Of a DNA stretch of 18,310 bases, positions 3,668-18,024 are shown piece by piece. This DNA comes from Candidatus Roizmanbacteria bacterium (GTDB lineage Bacteria > Patescibacteriota > Microgenomatia > UBA1406), in contig JANLHK010000050.1 in assembly GCA_024653645.1 (NCBI GenBank), positions 1-18,310 on the forward strand. Reading direction: 5' to 3'. A program made the position numbers and the translations under genes. Every line of letters starts with the position of its first letter. Positions within the stretch are counted from its first letter, which is position 1. Under the pieces are notes generated by a model, which was given only the letters and a program-made list of their open reading frames with translations, did not search any database and was not told the origin of the DNA.

Positions 3668-4999
3668 TTACCCGTTTTTCAGCTCATTGAGGATGTCCTT
3701 GTTGCTCTTGGTTTTCTTCAGCTTATCGATGAGCGACATCAAACGCTCTTCGTCTTGTAGCAACAATAACATATGGTGTAAGGTGCTTACTTTTGCAAAC
3801 GTATCCTTGGACAGAAGCTGCTCATCATGGCGCGTTCCTGACCGTTCAATATTAATGGCAGGGAAAATACGACGGTCGGCTAATTTTCGGTCAAGATGCA
3901 GTTCCATATTACCGGTACCCTTAAACTCCTCATAGATAAGGTCATCCATGCGTGAACCGGTATCAACCAGAGCGGTTCCGATAATCGTGAGACTACCACC
4001 TTCTTCACAATTGCGGGCGGCACCAAGAAATTTCTTTGCCGGATATAACGCTGCCGGGTCAAATCCTCCTGACAGAGTTTTACCTGATGGGCCAACGCAC
4101 AAATTGTATGCACGAGCCAAACGCGTAATTGAGTCAAGAATGATAACCACGTCCTGACCCATTTCGACTAATCGCTTAGCACGCTCAAGTCCCAGTTCCG
4201 CAACTTTGGTTTGGTGCTCAGGAGATTCATCAAAATTAGAGGCAACCACCTCACCCTTAATGGACCGTTTCATATCAGTGACTTCCTCAGGTCGTTCTCC
4301 AATGAGTGCAGCAATAATGTGCACTTTCGGATGATTGGCAGATATGCCAGCTGCTATCTCTTTCAGGATAGTGGTTTTACCAGCTTTGGGGGGCGAGACA
4401 ACCAGTCCTCGCTGACCAAAACCAATGGGTGCAAATAAATCTATAATACGCGTTGACAGTATCTGTGGATCATATTCCATGACGATTTGTCGGTCAGGAT
4501 AAATAGCCGTTAATGTCTCGTATTTTTTGCGCTCAATCGTGTCTCCTTTGAGGTTTTGATCATTAATCTTGGTTATTTTTAACAGCCCATGAAATCGTTC
4601 ATTCTGCTTGGGGGGACGAGCTAAACCTTGTACTAGATCTCCCTGGCGCAGCTGAAATTTACGAATTTGAGACATCGAAACATAAATGTCATTATTCGAT
4701 GGGGCGAACTCAGGACGCAAAAACCCATAGCTGGGGTTTACCATATCCAGAAAGCCCTGAACCTCAAACGCCTGTTTGAGATCATCCTGAATGCGGTCCT
4801 CAAAATTGTGCATAACGGGCCGTGATGACGCTGAAGGTTGCTCCTGTGGCATGGGTGTTACCAACGTCTCCTCGGGCTGTGGCACCTCGCGATTCTCTGG
4901 CTGCGGAATAATATTCTTCGGCTCTCGACCTCCTTCAAGCAATTCGGAAACGTCTAACACATCCTCATTATGAGCATTGTCACTCGTTTTTTGTACCAT
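3668..4999 (-). CDS. rho: Transcription termination factor Rho
   Basis: Hexameric RNA-dependent ATPase/helicase that ends transcription. The primary RNA-binding (cold-shock-like) fold is at about 82-145. In the motor domain, Walker A PPKAGKTT is at 203-210, Walker B DVVIILDS at 283-290, the Q-loop GPSGKTLSGG at 303-312, and KGTGNMELHLDR at 360-371 covers the R-loop region. It is 443 residues long. The first ~62 residues are acidic, proline- and glutamine-rich and look disordered, and I see no classical helical Rho N-terminal domain. The start at 4999 has neither a Shine-Dalgarno nor a clear leaderless -10; a possible TATACT lies at 5052-5047 without a good -35. Since no intrinsic terminators were found in the window, Rho may be important for ending transcription here. 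Confidence 0.98.
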   Translation of the reverse strand: MVQKTSDNAHNEDVLDVSELLEGGREPKNIIPQPENREVPQPEETLVTPMPQEQPSASSRPVMHNFEDRIQDDLKQAFEVQGFLDMVNPSYGFLRPEFAPSNNDIYVSMSQIRKFQLRQGDLVQGLARPPKQNERFHGLLKITKINDQNLKGDTIERKKYETLTAIYPDRQIVMEYDPQILSTRIIDLFAPIGFGQRGLVVSPPKAGKTTILKEIAAGISANHPKVHIIAALIGERPEEVTDMKRSIKGEVVASNFDESPEHQTKVAELGLERAKRLVEMGQDVVIILDSITRLARAYNLCVGPSGKTLSGGFDPAALYPAKKFLGAARNCEEGGSLTIIGTALVDTGSRMDDLIYEEFKGTGNMELHLDRKLADRRIFPAINIERSGTRHDEQLLSKDTFAKVSTLHHMLLLLQDEERLMSLIDKLKKTKSNKDILNELKNG

Positions 5000-5250: not shown

Positions 5251-5790
5251 ATGGTATCATCGTTGTCAATGTCATTCGCACGGGAACTACGCAAAGGCTC
5301 AGCTGCCCCCGAGCAGCACCAAACAGAAGAAATACGTATAGTATTGGTGCTCGATGATGTCTATGATACCTTTAACGTGGGTGGTATGTACCGTGTCGGC
5401 GATGCGGTGGGGGTAAGTCATATCTATCACGGTGGCGGTACTCCTATGCCTCCTGACCCTAAAATTGCACGCTCATCAGTGGGCCTCTATCAATATATTC
5501 CCTACTCCCATGTAGACAGCACGGTTGCACTTGTCGAAAAACTGAAACACGAAGGGTACCATATCGTCAGCCTTGAGCAGGCGGAAGGGGCAGTGCCCTA
5601 CAACCACTATACCTACCCATTAAAAACAGCACTGGTGGTCGGCAATGAAACATTCGGCGTAAAAAAAGAGGTGATGGACGCTTCAGACGGCATTGTTGAG
5701 CTGCCCATGTACGGCATTAACAAGTCCGTTAATGTAGTGGTTGCTACGGGGATTGTGTTGTATCAGATCCGCCAGTCCCTGACCCGCTAG
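5251..5790 (+). CDS. SpoU/TrmH-family (SPOUT) RNA 2'-O-methyltransferase
   Basis: Predicted S-adenosylmethionine-dependent methyltransferase acting on tRNA or rRNA ribose. It has the three SPOUT motifs: motif 1 N42-VGGMY-R48 (NxGxxxR), motif 2 VVGNETFG at 129-136 with E133, and motif 3 ELPMYGINKSVNVVVA at 150-165, which forms the trefoil-knot cofactor site. At 179 residues it is a minimal catalytic domain, like TrmL-sized members, without the N-terminal substrate-binding domain of RlmB. The start is supported by the -10 box 7 nt upstream. Its final 47 bp overlap the 3' end of the convergent VirB6-like gene. The exact RNA target cannot be read from the sequence. Confidence 0.92.
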   Translation: MVSSLSMSFARELRKGSAAPEQHQTEEIRIVLVLDDVYDTFNVGGMYRVGDAVGVSHIYHGGGTPMPPDPKIARSSVGLYQYIPYSHVDSTVALVEKLKHEGYHIVSLEQAEGAVPYNHYTYPLKTALVVGNETFGVKKEVMDASDGIVELPMYGINKSVNVVVATGIVLYQIRQSLTR

Positions 5791-8647
5791 GCGCACCTGA
5801 GTCACCCTTTTCCGGTTCTTCTTTTTTCTCTTCAGGGTTGTTGATGTCAAGCTCCATCGCCTGGGTCTGCGTTTTTCCAACGGTTGCTGCGGGTTTTGTG
5901 TCTACAAATACCTCAGCTTCCTGCATAGTCGCCTGTAATCGCTGCTTCACAGCTGATTCACGGGTAATAATCGAGAGCACCTCCTTGGCTGCTGCTCGTT
6001 TTGCTTTCAGGTAGACCGCAATGTCCGAAATGGACATGTCTGCCAGTACAAAGAACGGAATACTGTCCGCAACCTCTTTCAATCCCTCAGTACGCACTTC
6101 CTCGTTATCAGAGATAATCTTATTCAGGATGTTTTCAATGGTAACGCTGTCATGATTTACCCAGTCCTCACGGGTCTTTATGGTTTCGCTGATGGGCACC
6201 TCGCCATGGAGATAGTGATTCATCCACAGCTGTTTAATCTCCTCATACTCATCCAGTGACAGGGTATCTTTCTCATTGATCAGCTCATCAACCTCAATCT
6301 CTTCCTTTTTAACCTCCTGTTTGGGTGTGGGAGGAGCGGCTTTCTTCACCGCCTCCATGACCTGTTTCTGAGCAGGCGTGACCACTACCGTTCCATCTGC
6401 GACTTGCTGTATTACTGCCTGTACCGTAACTGCAGGCACGTTGGTGGCCTGAGCTACCTTCTCGGACAATTGAACCGCCGGAGTAGTGGCAGCGAGCTTT
6501 TCAATACTGGTGACCACCTTTTCCACGACTTCTTTCGCCAGTGCGGGAGCCTTCGCAACAGTGCCCAGTGCCTTATCGATGGTCTCGATGGTCTTAGTGA
6601 CCGAGTTCACATCAGAGTGACTTTCCGTTGCTATTTGCGTTAAGGCACTCGACTCCTTGCTCTTATGGACCGCTTCACGGATAATATCACGTACGACTTC
6701 TTTGCTCGTTTGTGATTTCTCACTCAATTTTTCAATAATTTCCTTCTGAGTATTCGTAGCAATCAACGTAGGCAACGATATCACTACATCGCGCACTGAC
6801 TGCTCAGTAGTTTTGACCGACTGGGCAATGGAGGTCAGCTGCTGGGTATTTTTTACCAATAGCTGGGTCCATGTCTGCATGACGCGCTCAATATCAGTCC
6901 GCTCACGCATAACCGTATTGGTCAGTGTTACTATCAGGGGGGTAACGGCAGGACGGCTCTGGGCGAGGGTCTGAATGCGTTGTTGTACTTCGGTTCTGTT
7001 GGCGGTCGTTGCTTCCAAAATTCTGCTTGCCAGCTTGTCGCCACTGACCGCACGTTGTGACATTTCCGCCTTAAGATTCGTAAATGTTGCACGATCTGCC
7101 GGTCGCTCGGCACTCATCGGATTCTTCATGTGTTCTGATAATCGATGGAAGTATTCCCTTCTGTCTTGGCGCGTTTCCATTTGTGCCACCTCTCTGACAT
7201 TAGACACACGCACTTCCAGTTTTTCCGCAATCTTCTCGGTTTGTACCTGTTTGATGTTTTCAAATTCCGACAAACGGGTGGTTACCTTATCTTCAATGCG
7301 AGACGCCACTTCACGGGCTATCTTTTGGGCGGTATCTTGTTGCAAACCGGTGGTACGCGTTTGGGTTGGTCCCGGCACCGGTGCCGAAGGCTGTGGTCCC
7401 AGTCCGCCATTATTCATCATATTAAGCAGGATGTTGCGCATCGCATAAATGCCGTCACAGCAATAGTCACGGAAAATACGCAGCAGCCACCACGGGAATA
7501 CTATCACCGCCCATAACATCACGAGCGAGATCACGTACTCGGCAAACGTATCGACGTAATTTGACGAGTTGACAAACCCACCGGTCGCCTCACCCACCAA
7601 CTCATGCCCCAATCCACCCGGCCGCTGGGACGGACCGCCATAGAGAATATTAATAGCCAGCGGATATACGATCGCTTTTGCCGCGTCAGCCGGAGCGCAG
7701 GCATTATCAGGATTAAATACCGATGGTTCACAGGCATCTTTTGCCCGTTGAAAGTCAAACAAGAATGGTATGCCGGAAGTCCAGATACGGGCCAGCGCCC
7801 CCAGGAAGAGTGCAAACAGGGGTCCATAAAATACCCACTGGAAAAATACGCCGATCCAAATCCAACCGGTATTACGAATGAAAATAAAGGGCATCAGGAT
7901 AGCCAAAAACGGAGAAACAATCAGCAAGAACCAGAGAAGTATTTTGCGCAACACCAGCATAATACCCATGGCGAAGTAGGTAAATGAGGTGAAATCGATT
8001 AAGAAAAGCGACGTCCGTTCAGATTCAGCATAATGCATACCAATACGCTTGTATCCGGTAAAATTGCGGTACCCTTCTTCAGAATTGGCCCCCGGCACGA
8101 AAAAGATCTTAAACAACTGATCGGCACCCAGTGTTTTAATAAAGAAGTCCATCATCACGTCTGACAGCTGAATAATAGCCAGTACAATGAGATATGAGAA
8201 AGCCACATACAGAATGAGCAGCAAGGTCTTATACACAATCGGGACAATGTCCACGTTAAACGACACGTCTTTTCTCCGGGCGATGAGTACGGCCAGTCCC
8301 ATAACCGCAACTACGATGACGATTAAGAATAACGTGGTGCCGGCAGACAACAGCCATACCTGGCGAAAAACCGGATGATTATCAATTGAGGGATTGTCAA
8401 GCACCCAATTAATGAACTGCCGTGCCCGTTCTGCACGCTTACCGACTACCGTCACCTCCTCATCCGCCACCCAACCGGTTTTCGTTATCCCCTTGTCAAC
8501 CGCCTCTTTCACGTTCCAAATGGGAGCTGTTGGAGAAGGGTTCACGATAATAACTTCTTGAGGGGCTTGAGCAAACACCGGGGAACTGAGTGCGGCAGCA
8601 AAAAAATACCCCGCCAACAGCAACATAACCAGGAATTTCTTTGCCAT
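5744..8647 (-). CDS. Polytopic VirB6/TrbL-like membrane protein with long helical C-terminal tail
   Basis: Likely inner-membrane channel component of a type IV secretion or conjugation-like machine; assignment rests on architecture, not a signature motif. From the start used here (8647) it has 967 residues: a signal peptide (about 1-27, ending SPVFAQ), hydrophobic segments near 98-123, 134-165, 213-257 (probably two), 262-288 and 368-391, a proline/threonine linker near 417-433, then ~530 soluble residues rich in helix formers, ending in a Gly/Ser tail. The open frame extends upstream to 8725, but that would overlap the ACT gene by 47 bp and hide the signal peptide. A promoter (-35 TTGAGT, 17 bp, TACAGT) 6 nt upstream of 8647 supports the shorter form. 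The 3' end overlaps the methyltransferase gene by 47 bp. Confidence 0.7.
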   Translation of the reverse strand: MAKKFLVMLLLAGYFFAAALSSPVFAQAPQEVIIVNPSPTAPIWNVKEAVDKGITKTGWVADEEVTVVGKRAERARQFINWVLDNPSIDNHPVFRQVWLLSAGTTLFLIVIVVAVMGLAVLIARRKDVSFNVDIVPIVYKTLLLILYVAFSYLIVLAIIQLSDVMMDFFIKTLGADQLFKIFFVPGANSEEGYRNFTGYKRIGMHYAESERTSLFLIDFTSFTYFAMGIMLVLRKILLWFLLIVSPFLAILMPFIFIRNTGWIWIGVFFQWVFYGPLFALFLGALARIWTSGIPFLFDFQRAKDACEPSVFNPDNACAPADAAKAIVYPLAINILYGGPSQRPGGLGHELVGEATGGFVNSSNYVDTFAEYVISLVMLWAVIVFPWWLLRIFRDYCCDGIYAMRNILLNMMNNGGLGPQPSAPVPGPTQTRTTGLQQDTAQKIAREVASRIEDKVTTRLSEFENIKQVQTEKIAEKLEVRVSNVREVAQMETRQDRREYFHRLSEHMKNPMSAERPADRATFTNLKAEMSQRAVSGDKLASRILEATTANRTEVQQRIQTLAQSRPAVTPLIVTLTNTVMRERTDIERVMQTWTQLLVKNTQQLTSIAQSVKTTEQSVRDVVISLPTLIATNTQKEIIEKLSEKSQTSKEVVRDIIREAVHKSKESSALTQIATESHSDVNSVTKTIETIDKALGTVAKAPALAKEVVEKVVTSIEKLAATTPAVQLSEKVAQATNVPAVTVQAVIQQVADGTVVVTPAQKQVMEAVKKAAPPTPKQEVKKEEIEVDELINEKDTLSLDEYEEIKQLWMNHYLHGEVPISETIKTREDWVNHDSVTIENILNKIISDNEEVRTEGLKEVADSIPFFVLADMSISDIAVYLKAKRAAAKEVLSIITRESAVKQRLQATMQEAEVFVDTKPAATVGKTQTQAMELDINNPEEKKEEPEKGDSGAPSGSGTGGSDTTQSP

Positions 8648-8653
8648 ATCTAC

Positions 8654-8682
8654 ACTGTAGTCTATTGCACGAAAATACTCAA
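8654..8682 (-). promoter_or_regulatory. Leaderless promoter of the VirB6-like gene
   Basis: Minus strand TTGAGT (8682-8677), exactly 17 bp, TACAGT (8659-8654), then GTAGAT and ATG at 8647. The -35 overlaps the stop codon of the ACT-domain gene. The 6-nt distance fits the leaderless pattern of neighbouring genes and decides the start codon. Confidence 0.6.
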
Positions 8683-9335
8683 TAATAGCCGCCATGCGCA
8701 CTCCTGATTGACTCCATAACAGCAACTAAATCCTGTTCGTCGATGATGAGGGTAAGCTCTGAATAGGTTGATACCAGTTCAATGATGTTAATACGCTTCA
8801 ATGCTACGGGACGGATCAGGGAATAGAATACATTCGGCTGGTCAATATAGTCACCGCTGAAGCGTACGCTCACTGATACCAGTTTGGTCATCGTCTGCAG
8901 CGGAGGTATAGATAGCTGCTGTTTCAGCTGCCAGGCTCGTGTTTCGGTTGCAATAACCACGGTTTCACTGGTCCCGTGGGTAATCGTATAGAAATCCTTC
9001 ATACCCGTGCCGCCTGCGGCTTTCCGTTCAAATTGCTCCAGTTCAAGAGTTAATGTCTGGCTGCGCTCATACACTAACTCAACCAAGGGGGATTGTACTG
9101 CCATAGCCTCTATATGGACCCGCACTTCATGGGTTTGCACCTCAACTTTACTGCGCATACGAAGCAGGGCCGCTACAATCGTTGCAACCTTAACTTCTTT
9201 TTGAGTCATCGTTTCAACTTCATGGCGGATATCCTTTGCATAGGCACTGGCATTTAAAATTCCCTGTGCCAAGGCCTGAGTAGCAACGTCTGAACGACTT
9301 AAGATGTCTTGCGTTGCCTGTGCAATAGTAATCAT
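8679..9335 (-). CDS. ACT-domain protein with N-terminal helical domain
   Basis: Predicted regulatory protein of 218 residues. The C-terminus (about 151-214) reads like an aspartokinase-type ACT domain: a first strand LVSVSVRFSGDY, then RINIIELVSTYSELTLIID, followed by a helix; such domains bind amino acids as allosteric ligands. Residues 1-62 (with GILNASAYAKDIRHEVE and a conserved-looking TIVAALLRM end) resemble the helical N-terminal module of stand-alone ACT proteins known mostly from archaea; I recall the family only loosely. There is no kinase domain. The start at 9335 is supported by TAGAAT 7 nt upstream. It is followed by the VirB6-like gene, which has its own promoter, so a shared role is uncertain. 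Confidence 0.75.
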   Translation of the reverse strand: MITIAQATQDILSRSDVATQALAQGILNASAYAKDIRHEVETMTQKEVKVATIVAALLRMRSKVEVQTHEVRVHIEAMAVQSPLVELVYERSQTLTLELEQFERKAAGGTGMKDFYTITHGTSETVVIATETRAWQLKQQLSIPPLQTMTKLVSVSVRFSGDYIDQPNVFYSLIRPVALKRINIIELVSTYSELTLIIDEQDLVAVMESIRSAHGGYY

Positions 9336-9420: not shown

Positions 9421-9975
9421 ATGCACGAAATAATGATAAAAACAAGCAGTATGCTGTCTGAACCAGAACAACGGGAATATGCACAAACCATTGCTCTTTG
9501 GACAGCTGAGGCCGCGCATCGAGGTGAGCCAGTGCTCGCACAATCAGCAGAGCGCCTATGGGAGCAATTTATTAACCATAATTCTCTGGTAGCTTTTGCC
9601 TGTGGACAGCTTTCGGGTCATATAACCACCTACTTACTGGGTGAGCATAATGCAACTCACTGGTATGAGGTCGGCAGTCTTATTGTTCCACCAGAACAGC
9701 GTGGAATGGGATTGGGCAACGCCCTGAGTGAGGCTATGGCATACCAGCACCCTCAAGCCCACCTTATTGCAACATCGAAGTATCCTTATGCTATACGTGC
9801 CTTGTCGCGGGCGGGTTTTCAGGTTATAAATTATCAAACGGTACCCGATGTTATACGAGCACCCCTGTGTTATGATGCATCCTGCTATGTACCGACACAA
9901 CCCCATACTTGTCGAGATGAGCACAATTGTGGCGGTTACTGTTTTGCCCTTGCCCGGCCGCCCATACAACCATGA
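9421..9975 (+). CDS. GNAT-family N-acetyltransferase with cysteine-rich C-terminus (copy 1)
   Basis: Predicted acetyl-CoA-dependent N-acetyltransferase, 184 residues; substrate unknown. The acetyl-CoA pyrophosphate loop RGMGLGN is at 94-100, preceded by the strand YEVGSLIVPPEQ, and the following SKYPYAIRALSRAGF (119-133) matches the usual helix-Gly-Phe motif. The last 40 residues hold five cysteines (C150, C155, C164, C170, C174), enough for a small zinc or iron site, outside the core fold. The start is supported by TATACT 8 nt upstream. The stop overlaps the start of the M20 peptidase as ATGA, so the two are translationally coupled. The same GNAT-M20 order, overlap and cysteine-rich tail recur at 14451-12845, suggesting a duplicated functional unit. 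Confidence 0.85.
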   Translation: MHEIMIKTSSMLSEPEQREYAQTIALWTAEAAHRGEPVLAQSAERLWEQFINHNSLVAFACGQLSGHITTYLLGEHNATHWYEVGSLIVPPEQRGMGLGNALSEAMAYQHPQAHLIATSKYPYAIRALSRAGFQVINYQTVPDVIRAPLCYDASCYVPTQPHTCRDEHNCGGYCFALARPPIQP

Positions 9976-11054
9976 TTAATCAACAACGCCTCATTGATAC
10001 GTTTATAACCATCGTGCAAATTGACAGCACCACCGGTTATGAAGATGACATGGCATCATATGTGGTAGCCTCTGCTCAAAAACTCGGCTACCATCCTGTC
10101 ATTGATCGGGCAGAGAATGTCATCATCACGTGCCCCGGCATCGGTGAACCACTGCTCTTTACTGCCCATATGGATACCGTTGAACCAGGGCATGGCATTA
10201 AGCCACGGGTCCGTAAGGGAGTTATAACGAGCGACGGTACAACGATTCTGGGTGCTGATAACAAGGTGGCTGTTGCGGTACTGCTTGAGCTACTGGCCCT
10301 ACGTTCAGGGCATAGTACCATGGGGCGGCCGCTTGAGCTTGTCTTTACCAGAGGCGAAGAATCGGGAAATATAGGGGCAACCCACCTGGACGCCTCACGT
10401 ATTACCAGCAAGATCGGCTATTCATTTGATTCAGGCGAACCATTGGGAACTCTCTTTACTGGCTCCCCTTTCTACGACCGCTTTGACATAACCATCACCG
10501 GAAAAGGTGTCCATGCGTCTGTTCCTGAAGAAGGAAACAATGCGCTGCTTGCTGCCCTACCATTACTGCAGCACATTCGTGTCGGACATATAGACGAGCA
10601 TACCATTGCCAATGTTGGCGTCATTCAGGGTGGATCAGTCCGCAACACGGTTCCCGAGGAAGTTCAGCTACAGGGAGAAGTACGCAGCTTTGTTGAATCA
10701 CATATCAATACGGTCGGGAAAAAGCTCCAACGGGACGCTCGGCAGGTTGCAGCTAGTACCAAAACAAACATCAAAGTATCAATCGTGCGAGAAAATCCCG
10801 GTTATCTACTCAAAAATAATCATCCACTTATCATGAGGGCACTGCAGGTATTGCAAGCATTGCATATCCATCCCATACTAAAAAAGACGTACGCCTGTTT
10901 TGATGCTAATGTATTTCAACAGCATGGTATTACGGTACTGAATATCTCTGATGGCTCCCGGGATAACCATACCACGCGTGAATCAATACGAGTGCAGGAT
11001 CTGTACGCATTGGCAAAAATTGCCTTGAGCCTCAGTGGACCTGACCGGATTTGA
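9972..11054 (+). CDS. M20-family metallopeptidase, PepT-like (copy 1)
   Basis: Predicted dinuclear zinc peptidase or deacylase, 360 residues, cytosolic. The metal and catalytic residues are complete: H66 and D68 (AHMDTVEPG), D96 (TILGADNK), E129-E130 (RGEESG), D153 (SFDSGEP) and H333 (RDNHTTRES). The insert near 165-265 is the usual dimerisation domain. The AHMDTVEPG...SDGTTILGADNK sequence is typical of PepT-like M20 proteins rather than ArgE or DapE, as far as I recall; aminopeptidase activity on short peptides is the best guess. An ATG at 9927 is in frame, but 9972 is preferred because it makes the ATGA overlap with GNAT copy 1. The last 19 bp, including the stop, lie antisense to the 3' end of tRNA-Ala. 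Confidence 0.88.
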   Translation: MINQQRLIDTFITIVQIDSTTGYEDDMASYVVASAQKLGYHPVIDRAENVIITCPGIGEPLLFTAHMDTVEPGHGIKPRVRKGVITSDGTTILGADNKVAVAVLLELLALRSGHSTMGRPLELVFTRGEESGNIGATHLDASRITSKIGYSFDSGEPLGTLFTGSPFYDRFDITITGKGVHASVPEEGNNALLAALPLLQHIRVGHIDEHTIANVGVIQGGSVRNTVPEEVQLQGEVRSFVESHINTVGKKLQRDARQVAASTKTNIKVSIVRENPGYLLKNNHPLIMRALQVLQALHIHPILKKTYACFDANVFQQHGITVLNISDGSRDNHTTRESIRVQDLYALAKIALSLSGPDRI

Positions 11055-11107
11055 ACCGGCAACCTTCTCTATGCCATAGAGACGCGCTACCGTTGCGCCA
11101 CAGGCCC
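11036..11107 (-). tRNA. tRNA-Ala (anticodon GGC)
   Basis: A full cloverleaf of 72 nt folds on the minus strand: acceptor GGGCCTG/CAGGTCC with a G3-U70 wobble (the alanine identity element), D arm GCGC-AACGGTA-GCGC, anticodon stem TCTCT/AGAGA with loop ATGGCAT giving anticodon GGC, a 5-nt variable loop, and a T arm with loop TTCAAAT. The discriminator base is A (11036) and CCA is not encoded, so it must be added enzymatically. Its 5' end is only 4 nt after the argS stop codon, so it is probably processed from the argS transcript. Its 3' end overlaps the convergent M20 gene by 19 bp. Confidence 0.95.
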
Positions 11108-11111
11108 GTTG

Positions 11112-12848
11112 TCACATTTTTTCAACCGTCGGTATTCCTAACCAATACAGTCCGTTTCGCAATACCTGTGCTATGGCACTGGTAAGTGAAAGTCGAAACA
11201 CCTCAGCTTCCTTCCCTTCTTTTGCCCCTATAATTCGGTGAACGGCGTAGAACGTATTATACGCCTGTGCCAGGGCATTTAGGTAGCTCGCTATGTATTG
11301 GGGTGAATATTCGCGTGCTGCCTGCACAACAACCCCGGGAAATCGCTCTAATAATGCAACCGCATTACGCTCTTCAGGATTCATTATATAGCTCGAATCA
11401 CCATCCTTTTTAACTTTTTGATTGCTCAGTACGCTTTTTGCACGGGCGTACGTATATTGTAAATAAGGCCCTGCATCACCCTTGAACGAAAGACTTGCCT
11501 CCAAATCAAAGGCGAGATACTTGTACGGACTCATTTTGAGATACGAATATTTCACCGCACCCACGGCAATGGCATCAATATCCTCATCAGAAATCGATGA
11601 CATACCATTCTCTTTCACGATTTGCGCAATGCGGGTATGTGCCGTTTCCAATATGGATTCAGCTGTGACCACCGAGCCTTTTCTAGACGACATCTTGCCG
11701 CTTTTTAAGCCGACAAATTCATACGCATTATGATACTGTTTGCCGGCCATATCAGGCCATAAGAGTTCCTCAACTTTAAAGGTGACAGCAAAAAAACTAC
11801 GCTGCTCAACGGCTACATTATGGATACATTGGTCAAGCGTACCAAAGTCAGAAAACTCCATTTGAGCCAGACCCAATTCTTTGCCCTCATAGGTTAAAAA
11901 TCCTTTACCGTTTAAAAATACGCGGGTGTCCAAATTATATGGAGAACCATCAAATATAACAGCGCCGTCTGACTTGGTTAATATTCCCTTTTCTAACGCC
12001 TGTTCAACGGCCTTGTGGGCCCTGTCAACTGTTTCGCTCTCCATATATTCACGGTCAAAGCGGGTATCCAGCCGCTGGTATACCTCATGAAATTTTTCCA
12101 AACTCCAGGAAATGCCCAACTGCCACAATTCATTCATGAGCGCATCGCTTTTCGTATAAATAGCAGCGTTCACTGCCATAATCTCCTCCTTTGCTTGTTC
12201 ATCTTCCTCAAAAGCTGTTGCACCCTCAACATACCGTTCACCCAAATAGCGCACCCGTTCATCAATCGGCCTTCGGGACAGCTCACTTAATTCGGTTCCT
12301 TTTTCAAGGTCTTTGCGGAATGCCCAAATATTTTTGGCCACATGCATACCCACATCGCCCTGGTAATTCGTGCGTATCAGCTTTGCCCCCTGAGATTCCA
12401 ATAACCGGACCAATGACTCGCCAATGCAAAAATTGCGCAAATGGCCAATATGCATGACCTTAAACGGATTAGGGTGGCCAAATTCAATCATGATGCGTTT
12501 TCCTTTAAGGTCTTCACCGGTGCCATACGCTTCTTTTGTATTGAGTATTGAGGGTATAACACTCATCAGGGTGGCATCGTCGAGTGTAATATTGACATAG
12601 CCGGGAGGTGCCACAGCCACCCGCTTAATGATATCTGACGGTGTTTTCTGCAGCTCGTCTGCTATTTCCTGAGCTATTAACAGGGGTGCTTTTTTCAGTG
12701 CCCGTGCCAGCTGCATGGCAATATTCGTCGCATAATCGCCATGCTCGGGCCGATCAGTCGGGATCAGCTGTACCGGTGACCCACGAGCAACATCAGGGCC
12801 ATATACGGTTTCTACGGCACTGGCTACCAGCGTTTGTAATGGTTTCAT
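11112..12848 (-). CDS. argS: Arginyl-tRNA synthetase
   Basis: Class I synthetase that charges tRNA-Arg. With the start used here it has 578 residues, normal for the family. The ArgS N-terminal (tRNA D-loop recognition) domain covers about 1-110; the HIGH motif HIGH is at 133-136 inside GHPNPFKVMHIGHLRN; KMSSRKG is at 385-391; and the DALR-type anticodon-binding domain runs from about 450 to a typical end GLYWLGIPTVEKM. An ATG four codons earlier (12860) exists, but 12848 makes an ATGA overlap with the M20 stop, matching every other junction in this operon. It is the third gene behind the T-box leader and is followed after 4 nt by tRNA-Ala. The motif before HIGH (GHPNPFK) differs from the SPNPTGP of many bacterial ArgS. 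Confidence 0.97.
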   Translation of the reverse strand: MKPLQTLVASAVETVYGPDVARGSPVQLIPTDRPEHGDYATNIAMQLARALKKAPLLIAQEIADELQKTPSDIIKRVAVAPPGYVNITLDDATLMSVIPSILNTKEAYGTGEDLKGKRIMIEFGHPNPFKVMHIGHLRNFCIGESLVRLLESQGAKLIRTNYQGDVGMHVAKNIWAFRKDLEKGTELSELSRRPIDERVRYLGERYVEGATAFEEDEQAKEEIMAVNAAIYTKSDALMNELWQLGISWSLEKFHEVYQRLDTRFDREYMESETVDRAHKAVEQALEKGILTKSDGAVIFDGSPYNLDTRVFLNGKGFLTYEGKELGLAQMEFSDFGTLDQCIHNVAVEQRSFFAVTFKVEELLWPDMAGKQYHNAYEFVGLKSGKMSSRKGSVVTAESILETAHTRIAQIVKENGMSSISDEDIDAIAVGAVKYSYLKMSPYKYLAFDLEASLSFKGDAGPYLQYTYARAKSVLSNQKVKKDGDSSYIMNPEERNAVALLERFPGVVVQAAREYSPQYIASYLNALAQAYNTFYAVHRIIGAKEGKEAEVFRLSLTSAIAQVLRNGLYWLGIPTVEKM

Positions 12849-13918
12849 AAGTAAGCCCAATTATATACAATCCTGCCAACAAGTTTCTCCAAACTATACA
12901 AGGTATCGACAGATATATGTTCATGCACGGTATGAGGCTCTTCTACGCCATCAGATAACACGACCGTTGTAATACCCATACTGTTTAATATATTCGCATC
13001 ACTGACACTAAAGACAGTTTCATACCCAACAGCATACCCTTCTTCAATAAGGCTTTGTGATAGAAAAGGCATAAGCGAACTGGTGGCATGCACATACCCG
13101 GGACAATACCCATTGGTAGACACAAAAGCCTGGCATCCATAATGTTGAGCACTAACCTGAGCTCGTTTCTGTATGTTGTGCCGGTGCTGGTTAAAAAATG
13201 CCTTTGATAAGGAACGGAGCTCTCCGGTGCACAGAACGAGGTCTGGTATAGTGTTGTTACCGCTACCTCCCTGCACCCGACCGATATTCAGAAGCGTTTT
13301 GCCCCCATCAAGTCTGCCCAGTCGAATATGAGAGGCAAAATCAATAAAAGCCAACAGCGCATTGGCACCTTTCTCTGGTTCACTGGCATGGGCGGCCCTA
13401 CCTTTAAATTGCACTGCAATATTGGTAATATACGGCGCACCGGTAACGATTCTTCCCAACGGCTTCGCATAATCAAAAATAACCGCCTTCGTACTCTGCA
13501 GCCAGTTTTTCTGTATATAGTCAACGCCTCCACCAGTTTCCTCTTTTACCGTAAACAATAACTCAACCTGCGGCAAGCGTTTGTATTTCTTTTTATATTG
13601 CCAGACACCAGTCAGTATGGCAGCGATAGCCGCTTTATTATCCGCACCCAGAATAGTGCTGCCATCGCTACTAATAATGCCATCGTTGACCAGCGGCGTA
13701 ACACCCCGCCCGGGCTCAACGGTATCCATATGGGCACAGAGCAGCAACGGATGACTGGTTGCTGATCCCTGCAATCCATACACATTACCAACCGAATCAA
13801 CCCTCGTTTCAAACCCTATATGCTGAAGATGCTTTATTATATACGTTCGCACCTGCCCCTCATGCCCCGAAGGACTGTCCAGCTTTACTAGCGCTAGTAT
13901 ATGTGTAAGGCTACTCAT
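12845..13918 (-). CDS. M20-family metallopeptidase, PepT-like (copy 2)
   Basis: Paralogue of the peptidase at 9972-11054, 357 residues, predicted zinc-dependent and cytosolic. Metal and catalytic residues: H63, D65 (AHMDTVEPG), D93 (TILGADNK), E126-E127 (VKEETGG), D149 (IFDYAKP) and H329 (EEPHTVHE). In copy 2 the DSGEP of the other paralogue is replaced by DYAKP, which may alter substrate preference. It overlaps GNAT copy 2 upstream and argS downstream, each by ATGA, so all three are one coupled unit behind the T-box leader. A role in releasing amino acids from imported or recycled peptides when charged tRNA runs low would make sense, but this is inference. A deacetylase role paired with the GNAT is the main alternative. 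Confidence 0.9.
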   Translation of the reverse strand: MSSLTHILALVKLDSPSGHEGQVRTYIIKHLQHIGFETRVDSVGNVYGLQGSATSHPLLLCAHMDTVEPGRGVTPLVNDGIISSDGSTILGADNKAAIAAILTGVWQYKKKYKRLPQVELLFTVKEETGGGVDYIQKNWLQSTKAVIFDYAKPLGRIVTGAPYITNIAVQFKGRAAHASEPEKGANALLAFIDFASHIRLGRLDGGKTLLNIGRVQGGSGNNTIPDLVLCTGELRSLSKAFFNQHRHNIQKRAQVSAQHYGCQAFVSTNGYCPGYVHATSSLMPFLSQSLIEEGYAVGYETVFSVSDANILNSMGITTVVLSDGVEEPHTVHEHISVDTLYSLEKLVGRIVYNWAYL

Positions 13919-14451
13919 CGCTGATACAGTATCTTGGTAACCACCGGCCTAAGATCAAAAATTTCATCCGCGCATCGTCTTCCCTTGCCAAAAAGCTCTT
14001 TCCCCTGGCACAAACAAGTAGCGCATGGGGCAAATGCCTCAGGCTCAAGAGCATAAAATGCATCATGATCATAAGGAACCGCTCCCAGTTTCTTAAAAAT
14101 AGGGGCAGAATTTTCATTGCCAAACGCTATATAATTTCTGTCAGGACCTATCTGACTAAACAGTGCTCCCATGATGGCCGTTCCATAGCCATGCTTTACG
14201 AGTTCAGGCTGCACCGCCCAAGCCCCAAACTCATTGTGACCATGGGGAAATTGAAAGCTGATGGCCGCCGTTGCAATCACTGCATTCTCCTGGCACAGCA
14301 GTCCCAAAAGGCCCTGGGCCGCAATTGATAATAACTTATCAAACGTCACTGAAAGCATCATGCCTTCCTGGGCGTATTGATTAATAAGATGTTGGGCGCT
14401 GGTAATCAGTGCCGTTTCATCAGGCGTAGGAAAGATTAATTGTTCTTTCAT
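13915..14451 (-). CDS. GNAT-like N-acetyltransferase with cysteine-rich C-terminus (copy 2)
   Basis: Predicted acetyltransferase, 178 residues, first gene behind the T-box leader. The acetyl-CoA loop is VKHGYGTAI (85-93), preceded by NEFGAWAVQPEL, and NENSAPIFKKLGA (112-124) corresponds to the helix-loop after it. The C-terminus has four cysteines, C143, C146, C148 (CATCLC) and C160, like the five in GNAT copy 1, although overall similarity between the two is low. It ends in an ATGA overlap with M20 copy 2. Its ATG is one nucleotide after the 3' arm of a 12-bp hairpin, which should hide the start when the T-box is unbound. The acetylated substrate is unknown. Confidence 0.82.
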   Translation of the reverse strand: MKEQLIFPTPDETALITSAQHLINQYAQEGMMLSVTFDKLLSIAAQGLLGLLCQENAVIATAAISFQFPHGHNEFGAWAVQPELVKHGYGTAIMGALFSQIGPDRNYIAFGNENSAPIFKKLGAVPYDHDAFYALEPEAFAPCATCLCQGKELFGKGRRCADEIFDLRPVVTKILYQR

Positions 14452-14452
14452 A

Positions 14453-14481
14453 TCTCTACAGTTAATTGATAACTGCAGAGA
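14453..14481 (-). promoter_or_regulatory. Sequestrator hairpin masking the GNAT start codon
   Basis: Minus strand TCTCTGCAGTTA (14481-14470) pairs with TAACTGTAGAGA (14464-14453) around a TCAAT loop: 12 bp with one G-U. The 5' arm contains CTCTGC, which is also the 3' arm of the T-box antisequestrator, so the two structures exclude each other. The 3' arm ends one nucleotide before ATG. There is no U-run, so it should block ribosomes rather than terminate transcription. Confidence 0.8.
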
Positions 14482-14665
14482 CGAGGATTCGTCGTGGTAC
14501 CACTCTGCTTTTTCCTATTCTCGCGAATAGGAACTCTCCAGCTCACTCCATCCCTGTATGTCGGAACGACAAGAGCCTGATGCTATTATGGGCATCTCCC
14601 ATCTGCTATTTTGAGCAGCAGCTTATTCCGGATCGCGACTCCGGCACCTGATTGCGCATTTCAGG
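14453..14665 (-). ncRNA. T-box riboswitch leader (translational type) of the GNAT-M20-argS operon
   Basis: The conserved T-box AGAGTGGTACCACG lies on the minus strand at 14506-14493, within an antisequestrator GCAGAG (14508-14503) ... CTCTGC (14480-14475); the CGTCTCTGC end is also typical. The UGGU of the bulge would pair with an ACCA tRNA end, so discriminator A is expected. A 9-bp hairpin TTCCTATTC-GCGA-GAATAGGAA (14533-14512) with a GNRA tetraloop is in the stem III position, separated from the T-box by a short A-rich stretch. The 5' half folds into several short hairpins (CCTGA/TCAGG, CCGGA/TCCGG, CTGCT/AGCAG, ATGGG/CCCAT, TGTCG/CGACA), and I cannot draw a standard stem I or assign the specifier codon. 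Arginine is the natural guess from argS; alanine is possible given the tRNA-Ala in the operon. Confidence 0.82.
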
Positions 14666-14670
14666 AATAC

Positions 14671-14699
14671 AGTATAAAGAAGAGTTTATTAAAAATCAA
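14671..14699 (-). promoter_or_regulatory. Promoter of the T-box operon
   Basis: Minus strand TTGATT (14699-14694), exactly 17 bp, TATACT (14676-14671). The start would be near 14665-14663, giving a ~210-nt leader, in contrast to the leaderless genes around it. The -35 lies inside the last codons of the upstream single-pass membrane protein gene. Confidence 0.75.
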
Positions 14700-15846: not shown

Positions 15847-18024
15847 TCACTTATTCTTCTTGTAGTAGAGTTCGAGACATCGCTTAATGATTTTGTCTTT
15901 TTGATTATTCACGACAGCCGGTGGCGCCATGGTTTTTGCAATAAAAGGTTCACTGGTTAATCCATCAATAGCCATCTTGAGAATCACCTCATACTTCCCC
16001 AGATTGACCAAGTCATCTGCCGAAAATTTACCGCCAAATTCTTTTTCAAAGAGGCTCGCATCGCGAGCACCGACTAAAAAGGTCGTGAGGGTACCAACAT
16101 TTCCAAAGATAGCTTTTTGTATTTCCTCCTCTACTTGACCAATGTACTGATTGGCCAGGGCCAGGTTCAATTTGTATTTGCGTGCCTCAGACAAAATTTT
16201 AACAAACGAAGTGGTCGCAAAATTTTGAAACTCATCAACATACAAATAGAAGTCTTTGCGCTCACTCTCCGGTATATTGACCCGACGCATGGCAGTCAGC
16301 TGCATTTTGGTAATAAACATAGCACCAAGTAACGCGGTCGTATCTTCTCCTAGCTTTCCCTGTGATAAATTAACAATCAGAATCTTTTCATTATTCATGA
16401 TGTCATCAAATGAAAAGGTTGATTTATTGCTGTCCATGATATTGCGGATACGAACCGATGATAAAAACTGTCCGACTTTGTTTAATATCGGAGAAATAGA
16501 CTCGGTGCGCAAACGCTCACCCATCTTGTCAAATTCGCTTTTCCAAAAGGCAGATAACACTTCATCATTTTTGCCAATCTTTTCAACCACCTTGTTACGA
16601 AATGATTGATTCGTCAGTAATTTAGGCATATCGATGAACGTCGCGTCCCCATACAGAAGCAAGGTCAGAATCGTATTGCGCAACATGTATTCCAGTCGAG
16701 GTCCCCAAGAGTTGTGATACAATTTATAAAACACTGATACAATCCCTGACGCAACTACATCAGTATGTTCACTCCCCTCCTGATCAAACAAATTGATCGT
16801 AAATGAGCGATCTGCGGATAATGTCGGATCCAAGTACACCACGTCGTTCACACGACGCTTGGGAATATAATTCAAAATCATTTCAGAGAGGTCGCCATGA
16901 GGATCAATCACCGCAACTCCCTTCCCGTTGCGGATATCGTTAATGGCCATGTTGGCAATGAGGGTTGATTTACCCGTACCGGTTTTACCAATAATATACA
17001 TATGTTTACCACGATCGTTATTTTTAATACCAAAGTTAACCTCACGATTACGCCATTCAGTTTTGGCAAAAAAATTTATGTCCTCAGCTGTATTTTTTGA
17101 TCCTTCTGCCGTTGTGGGAAGATTATCGGGCGACTCACTTAAATACGTTTTCCCCCACCATATGCCCTTTACTTTTTCTGACTGCTTGCCCGGCAGACTC
17201 CACAATGAAGCCAACTCATCCAGGTTTAATGTCAGTGGCTTTTTAAATGCCCTAAATTGACGCAGTGCGACATGGCGGAAAAATCCCTTTTTCCCCCAGT
17301 CATCAATAATATGGGGAACGAAATTATTTGATTCGGATTTGGTATACACGCCAAAAGTTCCCGCCAGTTCTTTCAAGCGTTCCTTGGCCTGCTTTTTATC
17401 CGTCGTTGCCAGTACCAGGCGAATGTCAGCCTCAAGCAAAGGATTTGCTAATTTTTCACTTACAAAACTTGCGAACGGATTCTTTTCTTGTTTAATTCCC
17501 TTTTCAGTTTGCTGGGTCGTACTCATCGTTGCTCGTATGGCAGATTGAGCATGTTCTTGGCTTCCGGGCGCCTTAACGATAATCTGAATAAATGCACTTT
17601 CATGAGGTTCAAGTTTTCCCAAAAAACCTAAGACACTGGTGTTCAACATACCGCTATCCTTCCCATCTTTATGGGTTTTAATAGGGTATTGATTACCATA
17701 AGCTAAGGTAAGCGAAGCACAGGCAACGTATTTTCCCTTTACCACTTCGCGCAATGGGTCCTCTTTTTCCTCAACCACCAGTGTTTTGGGGTATTGACTC
17801 ACCAGTTGGCTTTCAAAATACTTATCCAACTCATGGGGTGGATTCAGATAAAACCGGGTCCGCTGGTCAATAGATGCGATTTCAAATGAAAGCACCTTAG
17901 GAGAGCGCAAAAAAAGCTTATCGAGCCATGAACGTTTCCCGATTGACAGGAACGAGGCCAAGAGTCCTACCTGACTACTAGCGTTCGTTTCTTCTGTTTT
18001 AGCGGGACGAAGAAGCAGATACAT
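15847..18024 (-). CDS. Soluble TraD/VirD4-like secretion or conjugation ATPase
   Basis: Predicted P-loop ATPase of the HerA/VirD4/TraD class, 725 residues, which would bind and push DNA or protein substrates through a type IV secretion-like pore. Walker A GKTGTGKST is at 346-354, followed by AVIDPHGDL (371-379); Walker B FYLYVDEFQ at 592-600 (D597, E598); ARKYKLNLALANQY (614-627) is the usual post-Walker-B helix and strand, with a Gln finger. About 330 residues precede the motor and fit no domain I can name. Unlike VirD4/TraD it lacks N-terminal membrane helices; the small membrane protein encoded just upstream could serve as its anchor. The start is fixed by TATAAT 7 nt upstream. A VirB4-like role is less likely because the DPHG and Q-Y-I features resemble coupling proteins. 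Confidence 0.82.
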   Translation of the reverse strand: MYLLLRPAKTEETNASSQVGLLASFLSIGKRSWLDKLFLRSPKVLSFEIASIDQRTRFYLNPPHELDKYFESQLVSQYPKTLVVEEKEDPLREVVKGKYVACASLTLAYGNQYPIKTHKDGKDSGMLNTSVLGFLGKLEPHESAFIQIIVKAPGSQEHAQSAIRATMSTTQQTEKGIKQEKNPFASFVSEKLANPLLEADIRLVLATTDKKQAKERLKELAGTFGVYTKSESNNFVPHIIDDWGKKGFFRHVALRQFRAFKKPLTLNLDELASLWSLPGKQSEKVKGIWWGKTYLSESPDNLPTTAEGSKNTAEDINFFAKTEWRNREVNFGIKNNDRGKHMYIIGKTGTGKSTLIANMAINDIRNGKGVAVIDPHGDLSEMILNYIPKRRVNDVVYLDPTLSADRSFTINLFDQEGSEHTDVVASGIVSVFYKLYHNSWGPRLEYMLRNTILTLLLYGDATFIDMPKLLTNQSFRNKVVEKIGKNDEVLSAFWKSEFDKMGERLRTESISPILNKVGQFLSSVRIRNIMDSNKSTFSFDDIMNNEKILIVNLSQGKLGEDTTALLGAMFITKMQLTAMRRVNIPESERKDFYLYVDEFQNFATTSFVKILSEARKYKLNLALANQYIGQVEEEIQKAIFGNVGTLTTFLVGARDASLFEKEFGGKFSADDLVNLGKYEVILKMAIDGLTSEPFIAKTMAPPAVVNNQKDKIIKRCLELYYKKNK

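Follow-up and report, generated by a model that had tools for sequence, protein, structure and literature searches.

A probable arginine-specific, Class III-like T-box of translational type at the head of a GNAT, M20 and argS operon in a Microgenomates-type CPR bacterium

Introduction

The closest described systems are the translational Class III T-boxes of actinobacterial ileS genes, which have an ultrashort Stem I and were reportedly described by Sherwood and colleagues in 2015 in Nocardia farcinica and Mycobacterium tuberculosis. Translational T-boxes have also been predicted earlier in other phyla. Class III is defined in passages of PMC10482949, PMC7583486 and PMC10651847, the last of which names a K-turn in Stem I as a feature. 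According to a passage of PMC10482949, Classes I and II generally act on transcription and Classes III and IV mostly on translation, and section 6.2 of PMC7583486 places the short Stem I mainly in translational T-boxes. Both reviews account for the long Stem I of transcriptional T-boxes by arguing that the tRNA has to be captured quickly. For the T-box database TBDB, a section of PMC7778990 describes a class II model that was run in Actinobacteria and also on those class I hits whose Stem I was truncated; given the search scope set out there, short Stem I elements outside Actinobacteria are not wholly unseen. Among open-licence papers, judged partly by title, we found none on T-boxes or riboswitches in the Candidate Phyla Radiation (CPR) or Patescibacteria, and the relevant part of a Patescibacteria perspective (PMC11665869) treats riboswitches only as possible tools.

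The window analyzed here is an 18,310-nt contig (JANLHK010000050.1) from a Candidatus Roizmanbacteria genome. An initial annotation, made from the sequence alone, had proposed a translational T-box in front of an acetyltransferase gene of a CPR bacterium. The host assignment is borne out, as a genome of the same class includes Ca. Roizmanbacteria contig MGAO01000020.1. We think it probable that the locus is an arginine-specific Class III-like T-box with a translational-type platform, heading an arginine-supply operon of the order GNAT > M20 > argS in a Microgenomates-type CPR bacterium.

Results

The leader occupies positions 14452-14661 on the minus strand, is complete, and lies directly before the ATG at 14451. 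The Rfam T-box model RF00230 matches it with 31 bits (E 1.4e-5 for the 806-kb draft genome in 133 contigs; E 3.2e-5 within the 451 bases scanned). The gathering score is 93, and at that threshold the T-box goes unreported. In an Rfam scan of the leader region the T-box was the sole convincing family. A lineage covariance model (R1), built from the leaders of 15 other genomes with the window excluded, finds one place in the window (14667-14565, minus strand) with 52.7 bits and E 4e-14, or E 1.8e-12 genome-wide; this score and its E-values are partly built in, since the R1 sequences were mostly selected via a 13-base string, GGAGTCGCGATCC, that the window also contains. RF00230 alone is a poor detector in this class: a leader in genome G281 that is a T-box by anatomy, with Stem I GUCUACCGCAGUAGAC, scores only 17.1 bits (E 0.93). 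The window's own genome has a second RF00230 match (L001, 55.8 bits), before a gene that clusters with AspRS-type synthetases. By eye, its Stem I loop CUGACA reads GAC (Asp), it has a U-run terminator, and its bulge UGGC faces a tRNA-Asp with a G discriminator.

The R1 alignment covers the first 95 nt of 15 leaders, all from other genomes. Thirteen were chosen by GGAGTCGCGATCC with a downstream TGGNACC and two (L036 and L042) by CTACCGCAGTAG; three of the 18 candidate leaders (L167, L189 and L039) were omitted by choice. The helices (Stem I, Stem II and IIA) were marked as drawn on a single row, L164, some rows are closely related (e.g., L183 and L184), and those of L036 and L042 are visibly misaligned. 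In this alignment 90.4% of the cells at paired positions are paired, versus 65.7% after shuffling, with 0 of 500 shuffles as high. Both sides have changed in 12 of the 14 pairs, and there are 44 double-change cells versus 13.2 in shuffled alignments. Sliding the partners wipes out most of the covariation signal, an excess over slid alignments that is partly expected given how the structure was drawn. It is near certain that the leader is a T-box, as the initial annotation had held.

The anatomy is given here 5' to 3' on the minus strand. A promoter-like site, TTGATT-17-TATACT (14671-14699), lies upstream of Stem I; it was recognized by its match to the consensus (one found versus 1.1 expected in shuffles), and its first base, 14699, is the upstream limit that had been drawn in the initial annotation. 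The ultrashort Stem I (14621-14657), with the base GCGC...AGC, is supported by the R1 match and by helix covariation in the 15 other leaders. It ends in the 5-bp hairpin CCGGA-GUCGCGA-UCCGG (CCGGA 14644-14640, UCCGG 14632-14628), whose stability taken alone is unremarkable (z -0.3; matched by 72 of 200 shuffles). The predicted specifier CGC (Arg) is located in the apical loop (14635-14637). The Stem II hairpin CUGCU-CAAAAU-AGCAG (14603-14618) and Stem IIA AUGGG/CCCAU (14602-14588, within 14579-14602) are both supported by the fold, by R1 and by covariation in other leaders, and a IIB pseudoknot, GAUG/CAUC (14596-14593 with 14582-14579), is proposed by eye. No S-turn was clearly seen in Stem II of the window leader. 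The short Stem I with its specifier in the apical loop is as in Class III; the loop has 7 nt in the predicted fold versus the 5 or 6 nt of that class, so we call the leader Class III-like only.

Downstream, the predicted fold contains an accessory hairpin GGCUC...GAGCU (14540-14577). It holds UGUCG/UGGAG, which we assign by eye as a variant of an internal loop of the lineage, UGUCG/CGGAG, since an extra U on each side makes it fail the lineage pattern. GAGAG (RRRNG-type) and Stem III, UUCCUAUUC-GCGA-GAAUAGGAA, occupy 14512-14538 according to the RF00230 alignment and the fold; an RRRNG-Stem III-AA motif is described in a section of PMC7778990. Stem III itself (14533-14512) is GNRA-capped, and 2 of 200 shuffles are as stable (z -3.8). 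The antisequestrator (14475-14508) consists of GCAGAG, the bulge UGGUACC, ACGA-CGAAUCC-UCGU and CUCUGC. It includes the T-box sequence AGAGTGGTACCACG (14506-14493), in which the UGGU of the bulge (14499-14502) is complementary to the ACCA of tRNA-Arg(GCG), and the 3' arm CGTCTCTGC (14483-14475). The T-box sequence, its matching arm, the GNRA-capped Stem III and the exclusive 12-bp hairpin without a U-run, all listed in the initial annotation, are present on the minus strand. Missed at that stage were the ultrashort Stem I with its apical loop and the conserved Arg T-box before the GNAT genes of relatives.

Comparison with other genomes bears on the amino acid sensed. Exact matches to GGAGTCGCGATCC number 21 in 373 genomes; 14 of the 16 loci examined besides the window are followed by a T-box, and the remaining two fall, by eye, within coding genes. 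Flanking GGAGTCGCGATCC, the next two pairs are standard in 16 of 16 T-box cases (the window, the 14 and L093), where they occur as C-G, G-C, U-A and G-U, and one of the two loci in coding genes has standard pairs there as well. Leaders with the GUCGCGA loop precede argH in L093 (TIGR00838) and, by eye, argG, argF, more argH genes and a GNAT gene elsewhere. Six sister leaders carry the loop GUCACGA (CAC, His), and the tRNA-His(GTG) gene is downstream in five of the six. The discriminator of tRNA-His is C; the bulge is UGGG in four of the six. These His leaders establish the register by placing the specifier at loop positions 3-5, which in the window hold CGC (Arg).

Of 36 ultrashort-like leaders of the class, 27 contain in the apical loop a codon for the amino acid tied to the gene behind them (shuffled mean 10.3, maximum 21 of 36 in 10,000 shuffles); the count is not curated, since the automatic Stem I finder picks wrong hairpins in some leaders (e.g., in L001, where CUGACA is seen by eye). 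The 36 are those with labelled genes and an automatically chosen hairpin. Labels came from profile matches, sequence clusters and, for some, inspection by eye; 48 leaders were labelled in all, three of them from the window's GNAT family, two of which are among the 36.

The window's genome (G000) encodes a tRNA-Arg(GCG) (L144, G000:C33:14473-14545) with discriminator A, so UGGU faces A73-CCA, and CGC matches the anticodon of a tRNA charged by the product of argS, which lies in the operon. No tRNA-Arg with anticodon ACG was found among 30 loci scanned of the genome's 37 tRNA matches. In the 20 genomes searched, tRNA-Arg(GCG) was recovered in seven, and the bulge-discriminator pair is Watson-Crick in six of these (U-A in four, C-G in two); the exception, G407, has UGGU versus a G discriminator. 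Of the ligands suggested earlier, tRNA-Arg is retained as tRNA-Arg(GCG), and tRNA-Ala is dropped; the tRNA-Ala(GGC) encoded behind argS cannot pair with CGC. Specificity for arginine is very likely, and the ligand is probably tRNA-Arg(GCG), read by the predicted CGC specifier.

After the antisequestrator, CUCUGCAGUUA can pair alternatively with UAACUGUAGAG in a sequestrator hairpin that reaches the start codon (14482-14452, minus strand). The hairpin contains 12 bp, to which a closing G-U adds a thirteenth; in the 13-bp form there is no mismatch and two pairs are G-U, and the 12-bp form ends one nucleotide ahead of the ATG. The 47 nt of this region fold at -18.3 kcal/mol (z -6.6; 0 of 200 shuffles). 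CUCUGC serves both as the 5' arm of the hairpin and as the antisequestrator's 3' arm, so that only one of the two structures can form at a time. Computed without tRNA, the hairpin state is 9 kcal/mol more stable (-91.8 versus -82.7). A sequestrator exclusive with the antisequestrator and without a terminator is what a translational platform comprises, and the hairpin followed by a U-run that marks a transcriptional one is not present in the window: at 30-135 nt past the bulge the longest T-run is 3 and lies in the coding region, and the sequence after the hairpin is AUGAAAG. The platform thus looks translational, as had been claimed. No GGAGG-like sequence was found in the 30 nt before the GNAT AUG, where the hairpin covers -1 to -31, and by eye few of the 16 gene starts listed for the window show a Shine-Dalgarno sequence. 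The leader would work like a translational T-box; since no Shine-Dalgarno is masked, we do not file it with the Shine-Dalgarno-masking kind.

The four homologous GNAT leaders that have a T-box carry U-run terminators (T6-T7), which leaves the window's genome as the only one in which the sequestrator is seen. The initial annotation had staked its case on a covariance match and on conservation in related genomes; the T-box survives on both counts, and the sequestrator is not conserved in the homologous leaders found. Relatives conserve an Arg T-box before their GNAT genes, where it has a transcriptional look, and it is the translational platform that sets the window apart. Two relatives at the genus or family level (G001 and G002) have no GNAT match, and their argS genes start at contig starts. 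A T-run of 5-7 is present in 18 of 18 Arg-type leaders of other genomes (those listed up to L039); for L171, L174 and L183 the hairpin itself contains the longest run, and terminal runs are visible in the sequence. Two further Arg-type leaders are weaker (L221, TTTATTATT; L216, TTTGTTTTT). In a good part of the leaders the U-run passes straight into the start codon, as in the GNAT leaders of G083 (GGGGGATTTTTTTATGG) and G214 (ATCGGGATTTTTTATG); a count of start codons near the U-run, 47 of 92, includes clear false cases and serves as illustration only. A translational platform, with a start-codon block in place of Shine-Dalgarno masking, is the likely reading for the window.

All genes of the operon are on the minus strand. 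The first (13915-14451) encodes a GNAT acetyltransferase with a Cys-rich C-terminus (CxxC...C), identified by PF00583 (21.8 bits, just over the cut-off) and by an alignment of three members. The gene for an M20 peptidase-T-like/ArgE-DapE-like hydrolase (12845-13918; PF07687 and PF01546; TIGR01883 203 bits, below the cut-off) overlaps it by 4 nt. The third gene, argS for arginyl-tRNA synthetase (11112-12860; TIGR00456 364.7 bits, over the cut-off), overlaps the M20 gene by 16 nt if a TTG start is used. A tRNA-Ala(GGC) gene (11035-11107) lies 4 nt behind argS and is possibly co-transcribed with it. The operon had been described as opening with an acetyltransferase, not a synthetase. That is correct for the first gene; the operon is not synthetase-free, since argS is reached as the third gene via overlapping genes.

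The GNAT family is rare, with eight matches of at least 98 bits and two weak ones in 373 genomes. Seven of the eight, window included, are beside M20 and/or argS genes: GNAT > M20 > argS in the window's genome and G281, GNAT > M20 in G003 and G297, GNAT > argS in G083 and G013, and a convergent M20 gene in G258. In G214 the neighbor encodes an unassigned 487-aa protein, homologues of which are found by eye behind Arg T-boxes in G188 and G319. A T-box lies upstream of the GNAT gene in five of the eight (G000, G003, G083, G214 and, by anatomy, G281), with CGC in the loop of four; the leader in G083 has a long Stem I, whose specifier we guess by eye to be CGA. In G258, G297 and G013 (gene start uncertain in the last) the region upstream of the gene yielded no TGGNACC. 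More broadly, argS was found in 136 of 144 genomes. By eye, among the matches listed, at least nine genomes (G000, G083, G101, G112, G113, G120, G121, G135 and G142) have a T-box within ~2.5 kb upstream of argS on the same strand, mostly with another gene between. Other GNAT-type genes are first behind T-boxes in L090 (G103:C4) and L011 (G107:C7) by Pfam and in L170 (G364:C3) by eye.

The window's genome, from an assembly that is 87% complete, has no match to argC or argH, so the operon's role is probably to salvage arginine and charge it to tRNA rather than to make it. For the same reason we do not favor an N-acetylglutamate-synthase role in arginine synthesis for the GNAT protein. A profile search of solved structures with this protein returned only weak matches (best E 0.013), mainly but not exclusively to GNATs. 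Our guess is that its substrate is arginine or an Arg-containing peptide, and that the M20 enzyme reverses or feeds the reaction.

A second GNAT gene with a Cys-rich tail (9421-9975) is followed by an overlapping M20 gene (9927-11054) on the plus strand, convergent with argS; no T-box was detected before it. BLASTP detects no relation between the two GNAT proteins (E 0.095), and the two M20 proteins are 35% identical. Elsewhere in the window, 5744-8725 and 15847-18024 have the look of a conjugation or type IV secretion-type cluster, with a TraD/TrwB-like ATPase (PF10412) and a 993-aa protein that is membrane-like by eye and has no Pfam match.

A census of 144 genomes of the class, window included, yielded 118 RF00230 matches, 114 with sequence and 104 with a clear bulge motif. 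Ninety-five of the 104 pass an automatic terminator test and nine fail; of the ultrashort-like leaders, 49 of 54 pass. The test errs both ways. Several of the nine failing leaders still show a U-run by eye; those without one at the end of the T-box hairpin are the window, G081:C208 (argH family) and G109:C1 (trpS family). Two leaders that passed look translational by eye: G007:C4 (L091, glyA-like, AGGAG masked) and the second tandem T-box in G084:C3 (L027, AGGAGG masked). The leader in G081:C208 (L015), with a hairpin that ends 3 nt before the AUG, also looks translational by eye. The class thus seems to hold translational T-boxes more than once, though in small numbers.

Other features of these leaders were also recorded. 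Tandem T-boxes occur in L013 (G064:C13) and L027. An accessory hairpin with the UGUCG/CGGAG internal loop and a covarying outer stem is conserved in 24 T-box leaders (e.g., L019, L022, L042, L167, L183 and L189). Of 69 ultrashort-like leaders, 20 contain the pattern, one of them (L106) by coincidence in Stem I, against a mean of 0.08 after mononucleotide shuffling of the 69; it also occurs in 5 of 50 others. Among 111 distinct loci scanned, T-box leaders lie upstream of tRNA genes on the same strand in 11 cases of tRNA-Tyr (L003, L004, L009, L017, L021, L026, L056, L060, L065, L072 and L073) and one of tRNA-Phe (L050). Ten of the tRNA-Tyr genes are within ~150 nt of the T-box and that of L072 at ~550 nt; the apical loop shows UAC (Tyr) by eye in L021, L026, L056, L060, L065 and L073. 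In a scan of seven further loci, tRNA-His lies behind five CAC-loop leaders (L207-L211). Among open-licence papers judged by title, we found none on T-box control of tRNA genes.

Discussion

The window leader shares with the actinobacterial ileS Class III T-boxes the short Stem I with an apical-loop specifier, Stem II, IIA, Stem III and the antisequestrator/sequestrator logic. It differs in reading Arg rather than Ile, in its CPR rather than actinobacterial host, in a loop of 7 rather than 5-6 nt, in a plain CAAAAU hexaloop on Stem II without a clear S-turn, and in an operon that begins with a GNAT gene. Unlike in characterized translational T-boxes, the hairpin covers the start-codon region and masks no evident Shine-Dalgarno. 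With canonical Class I T-boxes (RF00230, Bacillus subtilis tyrS type) it has in common the antiterminator core, the UGGN bulge and Stem III; it lacks their long Stem I, and its 31 bits compare with the gathering score of 93. The nearest likeness is to the Arg T-boxes of the same class, which have the same or a similar Stem I loop with CGC, Stem II, IIA and the bulge, and from which the model that finds the window was built. Theirs have a T-run of 5-7 (18 of 18 listed up to L039), several passing straight into a start codon, whereas the window has none.

Starting from what sequence and comparison establish (the T-box, its helices, the specifier, the exclusive hairpins, the absent U-run and the gene order), we infer a switch in which tRNA binding, switching, action on translation, coupling and the arginine-supply roles of the enzymes are predicted steps. 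When arginine is scarce, the anticodon of uncharged tRNA-Arg(GCG) would pair with CGC (14637-14635), and ACCA at the 3' end of this tRNA would pair with UGGU (14502-14499). Binding would stabilize the antisequestrator (14508-14475) and withdraw CUCUGC from the start-codon hairpin (14482-14452), opening the ribosome entry site of the GNAT gene. With tRNA-Arg charged, the hairpin would form against the AUG and initiation would be blocked. Given that no Shine-Dalgarno is evident at the GNAT start, such a block would bury the 30S landing site rather than mask a Shine-Dalgarno. Control may extend to the overlapping M20 and argS genes by coupled translation or by polarity of the Rho type; positions 3668-4999 of the window hold a gene that we name by eye as rho.

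That same gene figures in another account, in which the T-box still acts on transcription, either through a hairpin at the AUG that stops RNA polymerase without a U-run or through Rho terminating the untranslated leader mRNA. Most T-boxes of the class look like attenuators, to judge from the 95 of 104 that pass the terminator test, and the four homologous GNAT leaders show T6-T7. Past the window's bulge, however, the T-run never exceeds 3 and is coding, and the hairpin gives way to AUGAAAG; we consider action on transcription unlikely here. Loss of the U-run could also have left a dead switch with a leftover hairpin, and the low RF00230 score, the derived platform and the draft state of the genome, in 133 contigs, are compatible with decay. 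Yet the modelled helices, specifier, bulge and Stem III are intact, and the 13-bp hairpin, free of mismatches with its two G-U pairs, abuts the AUG. Decay is therefore a distinctly improbable outcome.

Least probable of all, to the point of being hardly credible, is a T-box for another tRNA, such as a tRNA-Ala reading GCG one base further along the loop. GUCGCGA does contain GCG, the genome has a tRNA-Ala(CGC), and a tRNA-Ala gene ends the operon; against this stand the arg genes behind the same loop in other genomes, the loop GUCACGA of the His sister leaders, which has CAC at the same positions, and argS in the operon itself. The reading that we prefer remains an arginine T-box with a start-codon block.

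Many terminators of the class run straight into the start codon, so loss of the U-run could convert attenuation to start-codon blocking. Judging from this geometry, a hairpin that already touches the start codon would become a start-codon blocker once the U-run is lost. On a wider scale, we propose, with the chances in our estimate evenly balanced, that Microgenomates-type CPR bacteria have their own branch of T-boxes: apical-loop, Class III-like sensors that act mostly on transcription, partly with the UGUCG/CGGAG hairpin, and that also govern tRNA genes. U-run loss would convert attenuation to Shine-Dalgarno-independent start-codon blocking, and the window would be one such converted switch.

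The class often couples a short sensor to terminators, opposite to the association made in the reviews. Given these short sensors with terminators, and GNAT leaders that carry both platforms on similar sensors, the kinetic argument for a long Stem I and the path from terminator to sequestrator are both testable in this lineage. For the organism, the finding links an uncharacterized GNAT-M20 pair to arginine, and it suggests how an arginine-auxotrophic CPR cell may sense its amino-acid supply.
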